From the IMG/VR virus record IMGVR_UViG_3300020198_000006, positions 1 to 64,000 of that record: a DNA stretch of 64,000 bases; one strand, given 5' to 3'. The notes beneath the pieces are model-generated. The model did no database searches. It was given only the letters and a program-made list of their open reading frames with translations, and was not told the DNA's origin. Shown one piece after another: positions 1 to 60,238 of this stretch (the stretch's first letter is position 1; every line of letters starts with the position of its first letter). The DNA is from a virus. Position numbers and translations under genes: made by a program.

Positions 1-832
1 CCATTCTACCCAAACCTTCGATTCCTTTAGCAAAACCATATTCATTGATTTTTCCTAAATTCTTTTGTGTTTCTTCAACAACTTTTCTTGATTGTAACCC
101 AAGTGTTAGTGATGATTTACCAACTTTATCAATCGTGTTTAATGCATTTTGTGCACCAACACCAACCATTTCAAAGTTTCTGAATATTTTACCCATGTCC
201 TCTAAATCACCAACAAACGCACGTGATGTTGTCGCCATTTGGTCCATCGTATCACTATTCATTAAAGCAAACCGACCGGTTTCCTGCATAGTGTTGATTA
301 CAGTTTTCTTTAAGTCCTCAAAACCATAACCCATTGAAACAACACCAGGTAAAGCTTCAAAGATTTCACTTCTATAATCTCTTGATAATTCTCCCGCAAT
401 TCCAATTTGTGAATTTAATTCATTTCTTAAATTAACTTCTTTTGTTAAGATATCTGTTGAACCTTCCATTACACCCTTTAGTGCCATGGAACCAATATTT
501 CCTAAACCTTTAATTAAATCACCTTCTTTACCAAAGAAACCGGCAACAACATCTTTAATTGATTCCGCAATTGTACTTGGTTGAATTATATCAGCATTAT
601 TATATGACGTTATTTTGTTTCCTAAGTCTTGTATCTGATATGCTTTTGAGGCTGTTGGGGTACTATATGATTTTGATGAATCTGATAAATTTGTGTTATA
701 AGCGTTCCAATAATAGCCTATATCATTTAATAGTGATGGATTATTTTTCACCTCATCACAATCATAAAATTCACTCTTAAACTGGGTTTTACTGAGTCCT
801 TGTTTAATATCTTTAATTTTGGGTGCTGCCAT
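1..832 (-). CDS. Tail tape measure protein, N-terminal part (cut by window edge)
   Basis: Open from the ATG at 832 to the window edge, giving at least 277 residues. The chain is rich in Ala, Gly and small helical stretches without obvious enzyme motifs. Its place directly after a gp26-like/tail-chaperone gene and the tube and sheath genes is the classical position of a tape measure protein, which sets tail length and sits inside the tube. A TATTTATA box (836-843 on this strand) ends 3 nt before the ATG. The family call is inferred from position and composition; a baseplate hub protein is the alternative. Confidence 0.6.
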   Translation of the reverse strand, partial: MAAPKIKDIKQGLSKTQFKSEFYDCDEVKNNPSLLNDIGYYWNAYNTNLSDSSKSYSTPTASKAYQIQDLGNKITSYNNADIIQPSTIAESIKDVVAGFFGKEGDLIKGLGNIGSMALKGVMEGSTDILTKEVNLRNELNSQIGIAGELSRDYRSEIFEALPGVVSMGYGFEDLKKTVINTMQETGRFALMNSDTMDQMATTSRAFVGDLEDMGKIFRNFEMVGVGAQNALNTIDKVGKSSLTLGLQSRKVVEETQKNLGKINEYGFAKGIEGLGRM

Positions 833-843: not shown

Positions 844-999
844 CTATTTCGGACTATTTTCCAATTCAATTAAATAACTAACATAATACCTACGTAAATA
901 GACGGGCATGTTCAGGATGTCCCCATAAGAGAAACCTCTTTTAACTAAAAATAAAATTTCGTCTAACTGACCTTTCTTATAATCCGTAGAAAGGGCGAA
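844..999 (-). CDS. Candidate +1 frameshift extension of the gp26-like protein (tail assembly chaperone C-terminus)
   Basis: The +1 frame at the end of the upstream gene is open from just after a TAG near 1007 to a TAG at 844-846. It has no ATG, GTG or TTG start before an internal ATG at 909. It encodes a compact helical segment containing RGFSYGDILNMPVYLRRYY, which resembles the C-terminal extensions of lambda-type GT tail chaperones. The likely slip point is GAG TTT TTT CGC at 995-1006: a tRNA-Phe on TTT can move to TTC, and CGC is a rare-looking next codon here. Product of about 48 extra residues. Frameshifting is inferred, not shown. Confidence 0.55.
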   Translation of the reverse strand, partial: FALSTDYKKGQLDEILFLVKRGFSYGDILNMPVYLRRYYVSYLIELENSPK

Positions 1000-1729
1000 A
1001 AAACTCTACCCCGAATCCAATTTCAACTTGGATATCTTCTCCTGACGGGGTTTTTACTGTTTTTGCTAAATCTAATGAAGGTTTATGTTCTTTTACGTAT
1101 TTTCTAAACGATTGAGAATCTTTAATTGGGAGTTTTTCAATAAAATTTCTGATGTTCATCGTGTCCCTGTTACCCGCAACAGATTTAATCATCATCTCAA
1201 GTTGTTTAGTAACAATTGGAGCCACTCCAATTCCATTCCAACTTTTTTCAATATTCTCAATTTCTTTTTGTTGCTTTTTAGTTAAAAACTTAAATGTAAT
1301 TTCAATATTTGTTTTTTCCGTGGTGTATTTGAATTCTCCCATCGAATCTGATTCAAGTGTAAAGTCCTTGAAGGATATTTCACTTAAATCCAATGTTGTA
1401 GAAAATTTTTCATCTGTTTTTGGGTCAGTAAGCGAAATACTATACTCAGCACCAAACGCAGTATTTCTTAAAAAGATAAGTACCGCTTGCTTATCCTCAT
1501 CAACTAATTCATCGATAATAAAATCTCTATCTAAAATTTTTCTTTTTAGTAGTTCTTCAATTACTGTGTTTGATGCAATTAAGTTTTGTGCCGATAAAAT
1601 ATTTTCATCAGATGCGGTTAAGTAAGCAACCTTTAATGATTTTTTACTGCTGTTTGAATAGTGTATACCTCGTGAGGGTAACTCCACCACATCATATGCG
1701 ATGGTTGGGTCAATTCTAAATTCTTCCAT
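977..1729 (-). CDS. T4 gp26-like baseplate hub / tail assembly chaperone
   Basis: 250 residues. The N-terminus has the pattern of the T4 base plate protein family (gp26-like): an early LPSRG followed by an Y-N/S stretch, then a predicted mixed region and helices, ending in FFRPFYGL. It lies between the tube gene and the tape measure gene, where tail assembly chaperones are found in many tailed phages. The last codons overlap a second frame that would extend the protein by about 48 residues. No TATTTATA box precedes it, so it may be read from the tube promoter past the hairpin at 1784-1806. Family membership is by eye. Confidence 0.6.
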   Translation of the reverse strand: MEEFRIDPTIAYDVVELPSRGIHYSNSSKKSLKVAYLTASDENILSAQNLIASNTVIEELLKRKILDRDFIIDELVDEDKQAVLIFLRNTAFGAEYSISLTDPKTDEKFSTTLDLSEISFKDFTLESDSMGEFKYTTEKTNIEITFKFLTKKQQKEIENIEKSWNGIGVAPIVTKQLEMMIKSVAGNRDTMNIRNFIEKLPIKDSQSFRKYVKEHKPSLDLAKTVKTPSGEDIQVEIGFGVEFFRPFYGL

Positions 1730-1834: not shown

Positions 1835-2323
1835 TTAGTATACTTGAATACATCTGTCCATTCTTAAAGAACATTGGATAGATGCAATATCATCTCTTGA
1901 GTAATCAAGTTCATTGAAGTTCAAGTCTGTGATAAATGTTCCTTGAAGAATCCATTTTTCAACCACAACACCCGTTGGGTCTAACATTTCTAATTCAATA
2001 TCCTTTTTATAACCAGCTGCGTAACCCATACGACCTGTTACTGATTCGGCATGTAAACGGAACCATTCCATAAGTGCTTGTGAAGCTGAAGGACCAATTG
2101 GGTCTTTAAAGGTTACTCTCATTTCATTCCATTCAAATCTACCAGCAACATATGTTGAGGTGTTTATAAAAGGAATTGCAACTGAGTTGATTTTAGCACT
2201 CGGTCTAGCTGCTGATGATACATACCATTCGTTGATACCCAATGATGAAGGGAAACGAAGGATGAATCGGTTAACTCTTTTCGGTTCGTAAGGAACCGGC
2301 ATTTTCATTAATAAATCTGCCAT
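1835..2323 (-). CDS. 19: Tail tube protein, T4 gp19 family
   Basis: 162 residues, almost the same length as T4 gp19 (163). The layout NRFILRFP... WYVSSAARPS... MEWFR... ELEMLDPTG... W.LQGTFI matches gp19-type tube monomers, which polymerise as hexameric rings inside the sheath. It sits between the sheath gene (upstream) and the gp26-like gene, as expected for a myovirus tail operon. A TATTTATA box lies 39 nt upstream (2362-2369) and a hairpin terminator follows the stop. Confidence 0.9.
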   Translation of the reverse strand: MADLLMKMPVPYEPKRVNRFILRFPSSLGINEWYVSSAARPSAKINSVAIPFINTSTYVAGRFEWNEMRVTFKDPIGPSASQALMEWFRLHAESVTGRMGYAAGYKKDIELEMLDPTGVVVEKWILQGTFITDLNFNELDYSRDDIASIQCSLRMDRCIQVY

Positions 2324-2652: not shown

Positions 2653-5499
2653 TTAGATATTATCGAATGATGCTCCAGTAGGTGTTATTATGAACTCAAC
2701 GTCGATGAATTCAAGTGAACGTGTTGGTTTGATGTAAATCTTACCTCTAAGAGTGTTTGCATCAATGTCCTCAGGGTCATTTGATACGGTTACACGGAAT
2801 TCGTATAAACCTCTTTCTCTCTTTATAGACTCAAGAATTGGGTTTACCAATCTCAAGAACTCGTTTCTTACTTGTTCGTCGTTTTGTTCGAATAGTAATC
2901 TAACTGCAACCGCTGAAATTAACTTTCTGGCTCTTAACAAGAGTCTTCTTACGTTAATTCTGTCCAACGCAGATTCTCTAACCTGAAGGGTTTTGTTACC
3001 CCATATGATTGTACCTGTATCTGAGAAGGTTGCGATTGGGTTAATTCTGTTTTTATATAATTCGTCTCTTTCGTCTAAGGTCAATTTCTTGGTTGCTTTA
3101 ATCGCTTTTACCAAACCTCTTGAGTAACCCGCTACCGCGAACCAAGGGAATGACACATTATCCGTAAGGGCTATGTTTCTTACAACCTCACCTGTTGGTG
3201 GAACAAGCAATTGGGTGGCATTATCTTGGTCTCTAACCTGAATCCATGGCCAATATGTGGCTGTGTAGTTAGTGTCAAGAGAAACACCATCCAAAGCGGC
3301 TACCACTTCCTCAACTGTTGAGAAATTAGGTGGTGATATGATATAAAGTGAATCCGCTCTATCATTTTCCATGATGTCGATTGCCTGTGAAGTCAATGAA
3401 CTATGGTCATAGAAGTTGATACCGGGAGATGCGAATATGTTGATATCCACAGCTTCAGGGTTTGAGTAGGTCTGAATACCTTTTAAGTATGAATAGTAGT
3501 CAGAATTACCAACCGTAGTACTGAATACACCACCATTTGACGTGTTTCCACTAATATACGTTGGCTTTCCGAAGATATAAGAATCCCCGAATGTTCTAAC
3601 TTCTCTGTAAATGTCCCATCCGTCAAATCCACCACACACCGCAAAAGTGAATTTACGGTAGTTGATGTTAGTCATAACATTATCAACACCTGTTTGACCC
3701 TCTAAATCATACGATGTAGTTGTGAATGTTGTACCTGTGATTGTTGATGCGTTTGTAGATAAGTGGAAACCTTTAGTAGTACCTACCGCTGCAGCTCCCT
3801 TATACTTAAATAAATCCTTATCAAATCCTGTCTGAGAAGATAAACCAAAGGTTATCTTTCTGATTTTGTCCCCACCTGAAAGGATGGGGGTACCATCGGC
3901 TTCGTATCCCATAACGTCACCAGCGTCAAAGAATTGAGTTTTAAACATAACAGAACCCAAGGTTGTATCTGAGAACGATGTATTAGCCACGAATCCTTTA
4001 AAACCAGCAGGGAACGCATCTACGGGATGGTTAATTGCCATGTTTAACATGATATACTTAGAACGTAATTCATATTCACCATCAGATGTACCAACTTTTC
4101 TCGCCACATAACCTGGTAAGTCAGGGTTCATTGAACATCTTGTGAATTTTTCAAGAACAAGTTGATTGTCGTCAGTATCGTTGAAATCACGAACTAACAT
4201 ATCAAATTCACCTGTTTCTAAGTTAATATTAATGATTGAAATTTTTACTTGTTCATTCGCTGCGTTACCATCACAGATAGTAATCACTTCAAACAAATCA
4301 GATACTTCACCACCACGAACTTCAGATACAACCATTGGTGACATTGGGGTATCCCATTGTTCCGCGAAGTTTGAACCTTCTGAAACAAACACCTCATCTA
4401 AACTTAGACCTCTTACATTACCTTGTTGGAACGCCGCTTTTAAGTATGCGGAATATGCTTCGTGAACAAAGATAGGTACTTCCTTTCTTGGTTTATCAAA
4501 CACATCGGTACCTAAAACCTTAGTTATGTACTTAGATGATGTTGTATCCATAGAACATGTAAATGTCTTACCACTACTTGTTGTACCTGTAACCTGAATT
4601 GTAAATTCAGAGAATGGATTCACCCTAAGTGAACTACCCACAACATTGAAACTTGTGTTTCCTGTCAATTCAAGACCTAAAGTTTGACCTGAGTATGAAC
4701 CTCTTGGTCTGAAAGCCGCCACAACTTTATTATTGTGTTCACTTTTAACTGTTGAGTTATAAACAAATTGAGTCACATTGAATTGTTCTGTGCCACCTGA
4801 TGTGTATACAAATAAGAAGGAGTAAACCTCAGTACCACCTGAATTACATACTATATTATACCATTCTTTACCATTTTGGTTGTTAGCATTATTTAAACCT
4901 GTTAAAGGTGAAATTACTTCTAAACTTGTGGTTAGACCTGATGTAGACGATGATGGTACGTTACCAATAACAAACCATTGTCCCGTATTTCCTGTTGTAT
5001 TACCACTAAATGAGGAGAATAGATAATTGTCCATAGTTTGACCATCATATGAAGTAATTCCTGAAATGTTTCCAAAGAATGTACTACCAGTTATTTGGTT
5101 AAGGGTGGATGGGTCACACGTACCTGTGGTTGAGCCACTCAAAGAACCCAAGGTTAAACCGCCGAGGGTTTTAATTGCGTAAGTCTTAACAGGTTTATAA
5201 CCTGTAAGACCGAGAATTCTTGTTACAAAAAGTTGATTTGATTCCTCAAGATAAGATTTTGCTACGTAAGGTAACTCAAATTTTGGGTTACCATTACCAT
5301 CTTTTACTGGTGTAGAACCTCCGAAGTAAAGTTTAAACTCATCATAATCTGTTACAAGGATTGGTTCAAAAGCGGGACCTTTAAGGGTCTCACCAACTAA
5401 ACCAAGAGTTGTAACACCAACACTCTGTGCTACGAATGTTAAATCTTTTTCTGATGTGTAGACACCCGGAGATACAAATACTCTATTTGAATTTGCCAT
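2653..5499 (-). CDS. 18: Tail sheath protein, T4 gp18 family, enlarged
   Basis: 948 residues against about 660 in T4. The N-terminus (FVSPGVYTSEKD) and the C-terminal part (FSDTGTIIWGNKTL, RINVRRLLLRARKLI, YIKPTRSLEFIDVEF) are typical of phage sheath proteins, including the conserved C-terminal domain that forms the contractile core. Most of the extra length is a Gly/Ser/Thr-rich insert at roughly residues 105-330 and another variable stretch in the middle, expected on the outer surface. A TATTTATA box lies 35 nt upstream (5534-5541). Confidence 0.92.
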   Translation of the reverse strand: MANSNRVFVSPGVYTSEKDLTFVAQSVGVTTLGLVGETLKGPAFEPILVTDYDEFKLYFGGSTPVKDGNGNPKFELPYVAKSYLEESNQLFVTRILGLTGYKPVKTYAIKTLGGLTLGSLSGSTTGTCDPSTLNQITGSTFFGNISGITSYDGQTMDNYLFSSFSGNTTGNTGQWFVIGNVPSSSTSGLTTSLEVISPLTGLNNANNQNGKEWYNIVCNSGGTEVYSFLFVYTSGGTEQFNVTQFVYNSTVKSEHNNKVVAAFRPRGSYSGQTLGLELTGNTSFNVVGSSLRVNPFSEFTIQVTGTTSSGKTFTCSMDTTSSKYITKVLGTDVFDKPRKEVPIFVHEAYSAYLKAAFQQGNVRGLSLDEVFVSEGSNFAEQWDTPMSPMVVSEVRGGEVSDLFEVITICDGNAANEQVKISIININLETGEFDMLVRDFNDTDDNQLVLEKFTRCSMNPDLPGYVARKVGTSDGEYELRSKYIMLNMAINHPVDAFPAGFKGFVANTSFSDTTLGSVMFKTQFFDAGDVMGYEADGTPILSGGDKIRKITFGLSSQTGFDKDLFKYKGAAAVGTTKGFHLSTNASTITGTTFTTTSYDLEGQTGVDNVMTNINYRKFTFAVCGGFDGWDIYREVRTFGDSYIFGKPTYISGNTSNGGVFSTTVGNSDYYSYLKGIQTYSNPEAVDINIFASPGINFYDHSSLTSQAIDIMENDRADSLYIISPPNFSTVEEVVAALDGVSLDTNYTATYWPWIQVRDQDNATQLLVPPTGEVVRNIALTDNVSFPWFAVAGYSRGLVKAIKATKKLTLDERDELYKNRINPIATFSDTGTIIWGNKTLQVRESALDRINVRRLLLRARKLISAVAVRLLFEQNDEQVRNEFLRLVNPILESIKRERGLYEFRVTVSNDPEDIDANTLRGKIYIKPTRSLEFIDVEFIITPTGASFDNI

Positions 5500-55628: not shown

Positions 55629-55704
55629 GGTCGGGTAGCTCAGCGGTAGAGCAATCTCACTAAAACGAGACGTGACGCGATAGGTTCGACCCCTCCCCCA
55701 ACCA
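55629..55704 (+). tRNA. tRNA-like gene with 8-nt anticodon loop
   Basis: GGTCGGG/CCCAACC acceptor (one C-A mismatch), normal D-arm GCTC-AGCGGTA-GAGC, T-loop TTCGACC with only three of five T-stem pairs. The anticodon stem TCTC/GAGA leaves an 8-nt loop ACTAAAAC rather than 7. Isotype cannot be assigned. Functional, degenerate, or a frameshift-suppressor type are all possible. Confidence 0.5.
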
Positions 55705-55750
55705 CTACGATTATCGTTCTTTGACATATTTTTAAAAAACAATTATTATT

Positions 55751-56107
55751 ATGGAACAGTTATTTGCATTTGTTCTTGGTGTTGGCATTATGTCATTGAT
55801 TTATGGTTTAGTGTTAGTATTGAGAATGAGAAAAGAACTCAACAATGTTGAATCAAATTTACATAACACAAAAGATGAGGTTATGTCAATTAATAGGGAA
55901 ATTGAAAGAATCGATAAGAGAATTGACTCAAGGGTCGATAAACTTACCGATATAATATTTCGAGAATTAGAAAATAAGGAAAAAGACCTCCAAGATTCTA
56001 TGACTCGAAATTATGAACAAACAAACAGAGATTTTGAATCCGTATGGAGAGAAATTGATAAACAACAACAAAACAAAAATAAAACACGTAAAGTGTTAAC
56101 AGACTAA
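55751..56107 (+). CDS. Membrane-anchored coiled-coil protein
   Basis: 118 residues. N-terminal transmembrane helix (LFAFVLGVGIMSLIYGLVLVL) followed by a long charged coiled coil. Lies between tRNA genes. Resembles small inner-membrane spanin- or anchor-like proteins; function unknown. Confidence 0.6.
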   Translation: MEQLFAFVLGVGIMSLIYGLVLVLRMRKELNNVESNLHNTKDEVMSINREIERIDKRIDSRVDKLTDIIFRELENKEKDLQDSMTRNYEQTNRDFESVWREIDKQQQNKNKTRKVLTD

Positions 56108-56141
56108 AAGTCATAAACAAAGAACGGTAATCGTTTTTTTT

Positions 56142-56213
56142 GTTCCTGTCGTCTAATGGTTAGGACACCTCCCTTTCACGAAAGTCATGTCGGTTCGAGT
56201 CCGACCTTGGGGG
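56142..56213 (+). tRNA. tRNA-Glu (TTC), poorly paired
   Basis: D-arm GTCTAATGGTTAGGAC and anticodon loop CTTTCAC match bacterial tRNA-Glu, and the T-arm GTCGG-TTCGAGT-CCGAC is perfect. The anticodon stem CCTCC/GAAAG has two C-A mismatches and the acceptor arms pair badly. Possibly degenerate. Confidence 0.55.
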
Positions 56214-56223
56214 TACAGAAATA

Positions 56224-56338
56224 GTCGGGTGGTGGAAGCGAGTAGTTGTACAGCTGCCGATGGAAAGACACGGGGATGTGAAAGTCCCCACCAATAACGG
56301 CATATAGGTTCGAATCCAATCGGGGATACTCACAGGGA
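56224..56338 (+). tRNA. Atypical tRNA-like structure
   Basis: Ends with a T-loop (ATAGG-TTCGAAT-CCAAT). Upstream there is a hairpin GGGGA-N8-TCCCC whose loop contains GTG, and TGCCG/CGGCA pairing (56256-56302). The arms do not fold into a standard cloverleaf. Isotype not assigned. Confidence 0.3.
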
Positions 56339-56407
56339 AATATCGCGGTTCTGTAACGTACTTGGTTTAGGACCAATGAGTTGCGGGTTCGAATCCTGTT
56401 TTCTCAA
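56334..56407 (+). tRNA. tRNA-like, anticodon TAG (Leu?)
   Basis: Anticodon arm TTGG-TTTAGGA-CCAA gives TAG; T-arm GCGGG-TTCGAAT-CCTGT pairs with wobbles; acceptor AGGGAAA/TTTCTCA pairs except the last pair. The D-arm is unusual and the long variable arm expected of tRNA-Leu is missing. Confidence 0.4.
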
Positions 56408-56457
56408 CTTTATCATCGGTAATGATGATAATTTATTTTATCGTCTATTTCAACGAT

Positions 56458-56529
56458 GTCTCCTTAGCTCAGCGGTAGAGCATCTCGCTGTTAACGAGAG
56501 GGTCCGAGGTTCGAAACCTCGAGGGGACG
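56458..56529 (+). tRNA. tRNA-Asn (GTT)
   Basis: Fully regular cloverleaf: acceptor GTCTCCT/AGGGGAC with one G-U, D-arm GCTC/GAGC, anticodon arm TCTCG-CTGTTAA-CGAGA, T-arm CGAGG-TTCGAAA-CCTCG, discriminator G. CCA not encoded. Confidence 0.93.
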
Positions 56530-56534
56530 CTTTA

Positions 56535-56689: not shown

Positions 56690-57622
56690 AAAAGATTTGA
56701 GGATTTAGATATTGAGTCGAGAATCCAAAAAATAAGATTGTTCTTTGAATTAAGATATTGGGCGGTCTATAGTCCATAAAATAAACCATGAAAGTGGTAT
56801 AAAGTGACCTATTTGGTTTAAGTAGGTTGCGGCTTCCGCAAGGGAGCTCGAGTAGACAAACGAGGTATCGTTGAATCTTGAGTACCGAGGGTAACACTGT
56901 AGGGAAAGTGGTTTGATGAACGGGGGATGCGGGTCCTTCGTTTGAGGTGGGAACACCAATAAGAATAACTCGTAAGGTTTATGCAAGAAACACGGTCATC
57001 CAACTATGTCATTGCGTAATTCAATATGATGGGAATCTTAAAACCGAAAGGTATGGTTGTGTACGGGTGGTGCTGTTACAATCCTTGAATTGAATCTGCC
57101 AAGGTTTATTTCATGAAGGGGTCCAAAAATATGGAGGTCGGGAGACTTCAGAGGGTAGTTCAGTATCGTGTTGTCCAAAAGATAACATGGCTGGTTGTCG
57201 AGCCGCTACCTTCACCATCCGCGAACCAATACTTTGGTCTAATCAATGTCCAAAACATTAAATTAAATCAAGGAAAAGCGCTCGTCAGTCGTCGGAAACA
57301 GGTGACTACTTAGTAATGATGTGTTCATTGCCGTAGAGGGCTCCAAACCCAATACGATTTTTAAGAAAGTTCTCTAATCTCGCAAGGATTAATTGGGGTG
57401 GCAACCTCGAAGAGTGATGAGTATTAAGAGAGTATTCGATGACTCAAGGATTGGTTAATCTAATTGACCGTCACTGGTTGGTACAACCCAAAAGGTTGTG
57501 GATATGAAGGCAAACCATAAACCTTCTAAAGTCAACTACATAAACGTGTAATCTCAACGTGTTTTTTATTTTATTGAGAAGCCAACCGCTATATTAAGTC
57601 AGAAGAAATTCTGACTTTTTTT
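56690..57622 (+). ncRNA. Large structured RNA (~0.9 kb), GOLLD/ROOL-like
   Basis: About 930 nt with no convincing gene, less AT-rich than neighbours, placed right after a tRNA array and ended by an intrinsic terminator. Many local hairpins: TTGCGG-CTT-CCGCAA (56827-56841), GGTG-GGAA-CACC (56946-56957), ACC-GAAA-GGT (57043-57052), AGGTC-GGGA-GACTT (57135-57148), ACAACC-N5-GGTTGT (57483-57499). Three of these have GNRA loops. GOLLD (about 800 nt) and ROOL (about 580 nt) are giant phage RNAs known next to tRNAs; size favours GOLLD. 5' end is approximate. Membership not tested. Confidence 0.65.
57597..57622 (+). terminator. Terminator of the giant RNA
   Basis: AGTCAGAA-GAAA-TTCTGACT (57597-57616), perfect 8-bp stem with GNRA loop and T7 tail. 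Confidence 0.92.
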
Positions 57623-59836: not shown

Positions 59837-60231
59837 GGGGGTGACAGGCATTGATTGGCGTTGATATGGTAAATGGGCACGTAGTCGGATGTCATCTACG
59901 ACTTAAATCTATGGTGGTAGTTTTTAAACGGCAACGTTTATAACAACATGGAAGTAGCAGGTCTTCTTGCAACTTCTAAAGTAGCGGCCTAACCAAGTTA
60001 GGTTCTACAACGGGTCGACGGACATATAACCCAGGAACAGAAGTCCTTACGGTGTAACACCACCTCAGAGTGTTGGAGCAAACTTGACGGCTCTTGAAAA
60101 TCCGGTTATGAACAGGTTTGTTAATAGCTCTGAAAGAAATTAACTATTTGTTGGTTATGAATAATCAAATAAACGTGTAGTCCATTTATGATATTGCGAA
60201 CAAGACGCGGGTTCGAATCCCGCCATCTCCA
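59837..60231 (+). ncRNA. ssrA: Transfer-messenger RNA (tmRNA)
   Basis: About 395 nt. 5' end GGGGGTGACAGG pairs with the 3' CATCTCC to give the tRNA-like acceptor; T-arm GCGGG-TTCGAAT-CCCGC is perfect; CCA not encoded. The tag reading frame starts at GGC (59930-59932) after TTTTTAAAC and ends TAA at 59990-59992: GNVYNN ... SKVAA, 20 residues. Host-type tags are about 10-11 residues and end ALAA. Rescues stalled ribosomes and marks products for proteolysis. Confidence 0.9.
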
Positions 60232-60238
60232 CAAAAAG

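Follow-up and report, generated by a model that had tools for sequence, protein, structure and literature searches.

A probable programmed +1 ribosomal frameshift in a phage tail assembly chaperone gene of the T4 gp26/gp51 family

Judging from its own sequence and from those of its relatives, one tail gene of the viral contig IMGVR_UViG_3300020198_000006 very probably uses a programmed +1 ribosomal frameshift to yield both a short and a long tail assembly chaperone. The window analyzed here comprises positions 1-64,000 (the first 64 kb) of this 94-kb contig, and the genes concerned lie on its minus strand in the order tail sheath, tail tube, gp26-family gene with an overlapping +1 frame, and presumed tape measure. 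The second frame almost certainly encodes a genuine part of the protein, continuous with the first, and +1 ribosomal slippage as the means of joining them is strongly supported; a +1 slip of tRNA-Phe from TTT to TTC in this tail chaperone gene, as the original prediction proposed, is the best-supported reading. The features under discussion are the following:

2653 to 5499, minus strand: tail sheath gene (PF04984, phrog_23)
1835 to 2323, minus strand: tail tube gene of the gp19 type, the upstream neighbour (phrog_4542, 6.5e-24)
977 to 1729, minus strand: frame-0 gene of the T4 gp26 family, predicted short tail assembly chaperone (TAC-N), 250 aa (PF12322; phrog_150 baseplate hub)
1009 to 1012, minus strand: GGGG upstream of the slip, a possible stimulator (GGG codon fixed in the window's clade)
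1006 to 1008, minus strand: TAG closing the +1 frame immediately ahead of the slip codons (overlaps GTA GAG)
1006 to 995, minus strand: the site GAG TTT TTT CGC
998 to 1003, minus strand: putative slip codons TTT TTT (+1 re-pairing kept in relatives, TTT fixed)
995 to 997, minus strand: in-frame A-site codon CGC (Arg), very rare by codon count in the window's long ORFs
977 to 979, minus strand: frame-0 stop TAA, 8 codons past the first slip codon
844 to 996, minus strand: +1-frame extension, the predicted C-terminal domain of the long form (TAC-NC), with 50 codons at 996-847 and the stop TAG at 846-844
1 to 832, minus strand: presumed tape measure gene, incomplete because the contig ends within it (from its position, with a 620-aa ORF at the same place in locus L002)

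The gp26-like gene ends in GGG GTA GAG TTT TTT CGC CCT TTC TAC GGA TTA TAA, and the same DNA in the +1 register reads GCC CTT TCT ACG GAT TAT and onward, for 50 codons in all, to a TAG. The slip site and the coordinates first proposed for it (1006-995, with the frame ending at 844) proved right, and the open +1 frame beyond the gp26-like stop is real, but it continues for 43 codons past that stop rather than the 48 originally counted, the figure of 50 applying when the frame is measured from the slip, at GCC 996-994. It had also been claimed that this frame has no usable start codon, and no ATG, GTG or TTG occurs in the window's +1 frame between the TAG at 1008-1006 and the conserved block, the first in-frame ATG being the Met of NMPVYL within the conserved domain itself. 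The TAG closes the +1 frame directly before the slip and therefore excludes its initiation upstream, and a separate usable start codon for the second frame, which had been named beforehand as contrary to a frameshift, is thus absent from the window. The tape measure identity of the gene that follows is presumed from position and length, and its protein found no match in the family libraries queried.

At the protein level, the frame-0 product matches PF12322 with 33.9 bits (curated cut-off 24.5), and when compared alone with phrog_150 it aligns only to position 233 (40.4 bits), whereas the 294-aa fusion aligns over its residues 15-288 to profile positions 17-277 of 282 (47.0 bits). The +1 domain aligns with the C-terminal tail of T4 gp51, sequence identity being weak, and a profile comparison of this domain with the C-termini of gp51 and of the -1 lineages described below gave P 7e-6 (for a single comparison). 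The chaperone-like tail that had been suspected is in keeping with the phrog_150 match running through the extension and with this resemblance to the gp51 C-terminus. The predicted structure of the fusion, from an alignment that included its own +1-frame rows, has a mean pLDDT of 88, with helices making up a small domain in the +1 part, and the named matches among predicted viral structures are T4-type baseplate hub (assembly) proteins. A PDB structure search returned nothing significant (the HK97 tail chaperone 2ob9 came at E 1.9, probability 0.35), and a search of solved structures by sequence found no match; the putative chaperone role is deduced from the protein family and from the order of the genes.

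Conservation in related phages was one of the checks originally suggested, and the overlap and the slippery codons are kept in every relative for which the gene's 3' end is intact, a set of 240 loci from three viral-contig searches with proteins of three sub-clades. Two slippery codons stand 5 to 8 codons ahead of the frame-0 stop in 240/240, the distance from the first slip codon to that stop being 6 or 8 codons in 238 of them, and an open +1 frame follows in 240/240, extending at least 42 codons past the frame-0 stop or up to the contig end (8 loci). The window's clade (79 loci) has the motif TTT TTT CGY CCT, with CGC or CGT in 79/79, and elsewhere the motifs are TTT TTT TGG CCT (112), TTT CTT TGG CCT (36) and rarer forms. 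When viral contigs were searched with the +1-encoded domain alone, a query that does not presuppose the gp26 part, the site was present in 79/79 and 80/80, which are not independent counts because many of the contigs are common to the first sets. The +1 layout is also present in Flavobacterium phage immuto, Microcystis phage Mel-JY01 and LR756508, as well as in the Firmicute phages SP-15, LIS04 and GXN1, and a search of viral contigs with SP-15 matched only SP-15 itself. The nearest named isolate to the window's phage is a Flavobacterium phage; bacterial genomes queried with the window protein held no relative, and a sister protein matched one MAG.

The extension also behaves as protein-coding sequence. 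Past the frame-0 stop, the +1 register is free of stops and has pN/pS values of 0.16 (window's clade), 0.25 and 0.18 (the two other clades compared), against a pN/pS of 1.2-2.2 and between 3.5 and 10.6 stops per 100 codons for the other two registers, which indicates that the extension is under protein-level (purifying) selection; since the design is found in 240/240 loci and the low pN/pS comes without stops, the overlap is not due to chance. The slip codons are constrained at the nucleotide level, for 130 of the 133 representatives encode Phe at the first codon and all 130 do so with TTT (the remaining three have CTT), compared with a background TTT share of 75-77% of Phe codons elsewhere in the gene (TTC making up about a quarter), a fixation to which no exact probability is attached because the representatives are related. 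Third positions just upstream are free to vary (codon -2, for example, is GTG, GTT, GTA or GTC), and since the stretch read in both frames begins only after the slip codons, double coding fails to explain their fixed third bases.

The events envisaged are that most ribosomes would terminate at TAA 979-977 to give the 250-aa short form, and that a fraction would slip one base forward at TTT TTT, where tRNA-Phe would re-pair on the overlapping TTT or TTC and the next in-frame codon, which in the window is the very rare CGC, would wait during the slip; the shifted ribosomes would then continue translating in the +1 register and finish the 294-aa long form. If lambda G/GT is a guide, the tape measure protein may be bound by both forms, and recruitment of tube subunits may fall to the long one. 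The first codon together with the next base reads TTT_T, TTT_C or CTT_T in 240/240 loci, each re-pairable one base forward, and the second codon is re-pairable in +1 in 235/240, the remaining five having CTA_T, so that the first is favoured as the general slip codon. Slippage at the second codon only was rejected as a general mechanism on account of those five loci, and where both codons are slippery it is possible that either could slip. UUU_Ynn is reported to be especially +1-prone in bacteria (PMC5009743), and I infer that slipping to TTC would improve pairing with the GAA anticodon. The codon CGC accounts for 10 of the 16,733 codons in the window's long ORFs and is the second-rarest sense codon, and a rare A-site codon is specific to the window's clade, TGG taking this place in most other clades.

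The same frame would also be entered if the ribosome shifted by -2, as in phage Mu (PMC5009743), with one extra Phe in the product (EFFFA at the predicted window-type junction, against EFFA under +1), and the run of six or seven T's in most loci makes such re-pairing feasible; I consider this unlikely, since 42/240 loci, mostly TTT CTT TGG, lack a T-run longer than three and would re-pair poorly in -2, whereas the CTT_T and TTT_C of these same loci are well suited to +1. For immuto (TTT CTT TGG) the predicted junction peptides are GVSFLGLTPEYR for +1 at CTT_T and GVSFFGLTPEYR for +1 at TTT_C. The T6 or T7 runs of most loci could equally be imagined to make RNA polymerase slip and produce a mixed mRNA population, an explanation of very low probability given that the overlap is kept in the 42 loci whose run is only three T's, which counts against polymerase slippage and against -2 as a general mechanism alike, and that the conserved feature is codon re-pairing and not run length. 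It is just as hard to credit that the +1 ORF is expressed independently, as a gene initiating at a start codon of its own, even if Mel-JY01 is annotated with a separate ORF from a TTG upstream of the site, immuto with a 36-aa ORF from an internal ATG, and 177/240 loci do have some ATG, GTG or TTG in the +1 frame ahead of the site, for such a start is missing from 63/240 loci, the window among them, a +1-frame stop lies within 10 codons upstream of the site in 116/240, the fixed TTT codons would be left unexplained, and T4 gp51 carries this domain in one continuous reading frame with the N part. An assembly error in this single metagenomic contig, or a dead remnant, is refuted by the recurrence of the site across 240 loci, among which 176 different 300-nt haplotypes occur, and by purifying selection on the +1 frame.

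With regard to what might stimulate the proposed +1 ribosomal slip, the GGG codon three codons upstream is found in 25/25 representatives of the window's clade against a background of 3%, is enriched in a second clade (34/63 Gly) and is absent as a trend from the third. The GGGG being fixed in the window's clade, common in one other and missing from the third, an SD-like stimulator is therefore not general and was rejected as such, and a conserved stimulatory RNA structure was likewise rejected (mean z values from -1.1 to +0.7; of 11 pairs, one covaries).

Several known systems invite comparison. Like lambda G/GT and similar genes next to the tape measure gene, the window gene would by itself yield chaperones of two lengths, short and long, and it lies, with its overlapping frame, between the tail tube gene (by profile) and the presumed tape measure gene; unlike lambda, which shifts by -1, it has its extension in the +1 register, not in that of the X XXY YYZ heptamer of -1 sites, and it belongs to a different protein family. 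The window's clade, where a pyrimidine follows UUU (UUU_CGY), recalls influenza A PA-X (UCC_UUU_CGU; PMC5009743), although the analogy with PA-X and with bacterial UUU_Ynn sites is one of shift site only, the genes being unrelated and the window's UUU being preceded by GAG and not UCC. In Bacteroidia, +1 shifting is common in prfB, the gene for release factor 2 (PMC8710568); some relatives of the window gene share CTT_T with prfB, as all would share the +1 slip, but the window's A site holds CGC instead of a stop and has no close SD-like element, the GGGG lying 5 or 8 nt before the slip codon. The tail chaperone of the haloarchaeal myovirus HSTV-2, very likely +1 (PMC5009743), is similarly a myovirus tail gene, but it belongs to an archaeal virus and is compared here by shift direction and gene type.

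The most instructive comparison is with T4 itself, whose gp26 and gp51 both match PF12322, gp51 being longer with a C-terminal tail. The window gene shares with this pair the protein family and the design of a short form plus a long form with an added C-terminal domain, but T4 has two separate genes where here there is one gene with an overlapping +1 frame, and the whole 94-kb record, which may be incomplete, contains one PF12322 match and no T4-type pair. According to a major review, T4 is the exception to the wide conservation of the G-T type frameshift, singled out as a long-tailed phage that lacks one in its tail chaperone (PMC5009743); the environmental lineage described here is large, shares T4's protein family and has a deeply conserved site fitting +1. 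In some T4-like phages, one short and one long copy of the chaperone gene are described as being used instead of frameshifting (PMC10885494, citing Vladimirov, Gautam and Davidson 2022). T4 gp26 and gp51 fit this arrangement of separate short and long genes. The 2022 work of Vladimirov, Gautam and Davidson on T4-like phages reportedly argues, by its title, for a mechanism other than frameshift. No description of a +1 shift in the gp26/gp51 (PF12322) family was found in the literature, where that work is known through its title and citing papers, so that priority is uncertain.

More distant relatives carry T TTT TTC or T TTT TTT at the ends of their gp26-family genes as candidate -1 sites, with the C-terminal part lying in the -1 register; they are the cyanophages S-PM2, P-HM1 and MS29 as well as Caulobacter Cr30, Vibrio K575 and vB_VmeM-32 and the large phages Atu_ph07, PA5oct and RAS14 (loci L248, L251, L252, L253 and L418-L422). 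These homologues share with the window the gene, its place and a U-rich site, and differ in having the -1 instead of the +1 register; the -1 sites are candidates, the second ORF of S-PM2 being annotated with its own start, and the layout is less clear in LR756511 and Vibrio K355. The cyanophage records were reached with a 107-aa generic phage-like consensus query, on whose letters no result depends. In light of these candidate -1 sites, frameshift direction appears to be lineage-dependent, and a tree of the N part, with weak deep branches and long T4 branches, requires three or more transitions between the states +1, -1 and none and places T4 inside a -1 group. A tentative proposal, which I would rate slightly below an even chance, is that the T4-superfamily tail chaperone was ancestrally expressed by recoding at a U-rich site, that the direction of this recoding flipped between -1 and +1 in place with the C-terminal domain kept, and that T4 instead duplicated the gene into 26 and 51. 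The +1 lineage and the candidate -1 lineages together offer a natural series for studying the evolution of frameshift direction, and many examples are added to the phage UUU_Y +1 sites.

Annotation can also be corrected, the +1 domain being truncated or called a separate gene in deposited genomes. The annotated 36-aa protein immuto35A_232 (L082:4854-4964) was called from an ATG lying within the +1 frame, and it seems to be a truncated part of the long form of the chaperone. Elsewhere in the window, the sheath protein has 948 aa, about twice the length of the phrog_23 profile (496), and must therefore contain long inserts, and a 22-base AT-rich unit is present in three tandem copies (actagattaattaaatataaa etc.) at about 2466-2540, between the tube and sheath genes. 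On the plus strand, a small tRNA cluster (55629-56530, with one tRNA of uncertain anticodon) lies near a GOLLD RNA, a large structured RNA matched over its full length with 309 bits (57151-57560), and a phage-borne tmRNA with the predicted tag GNVYNNMEVAGLLATSKVAA was detected by two programs at 59837-60234.
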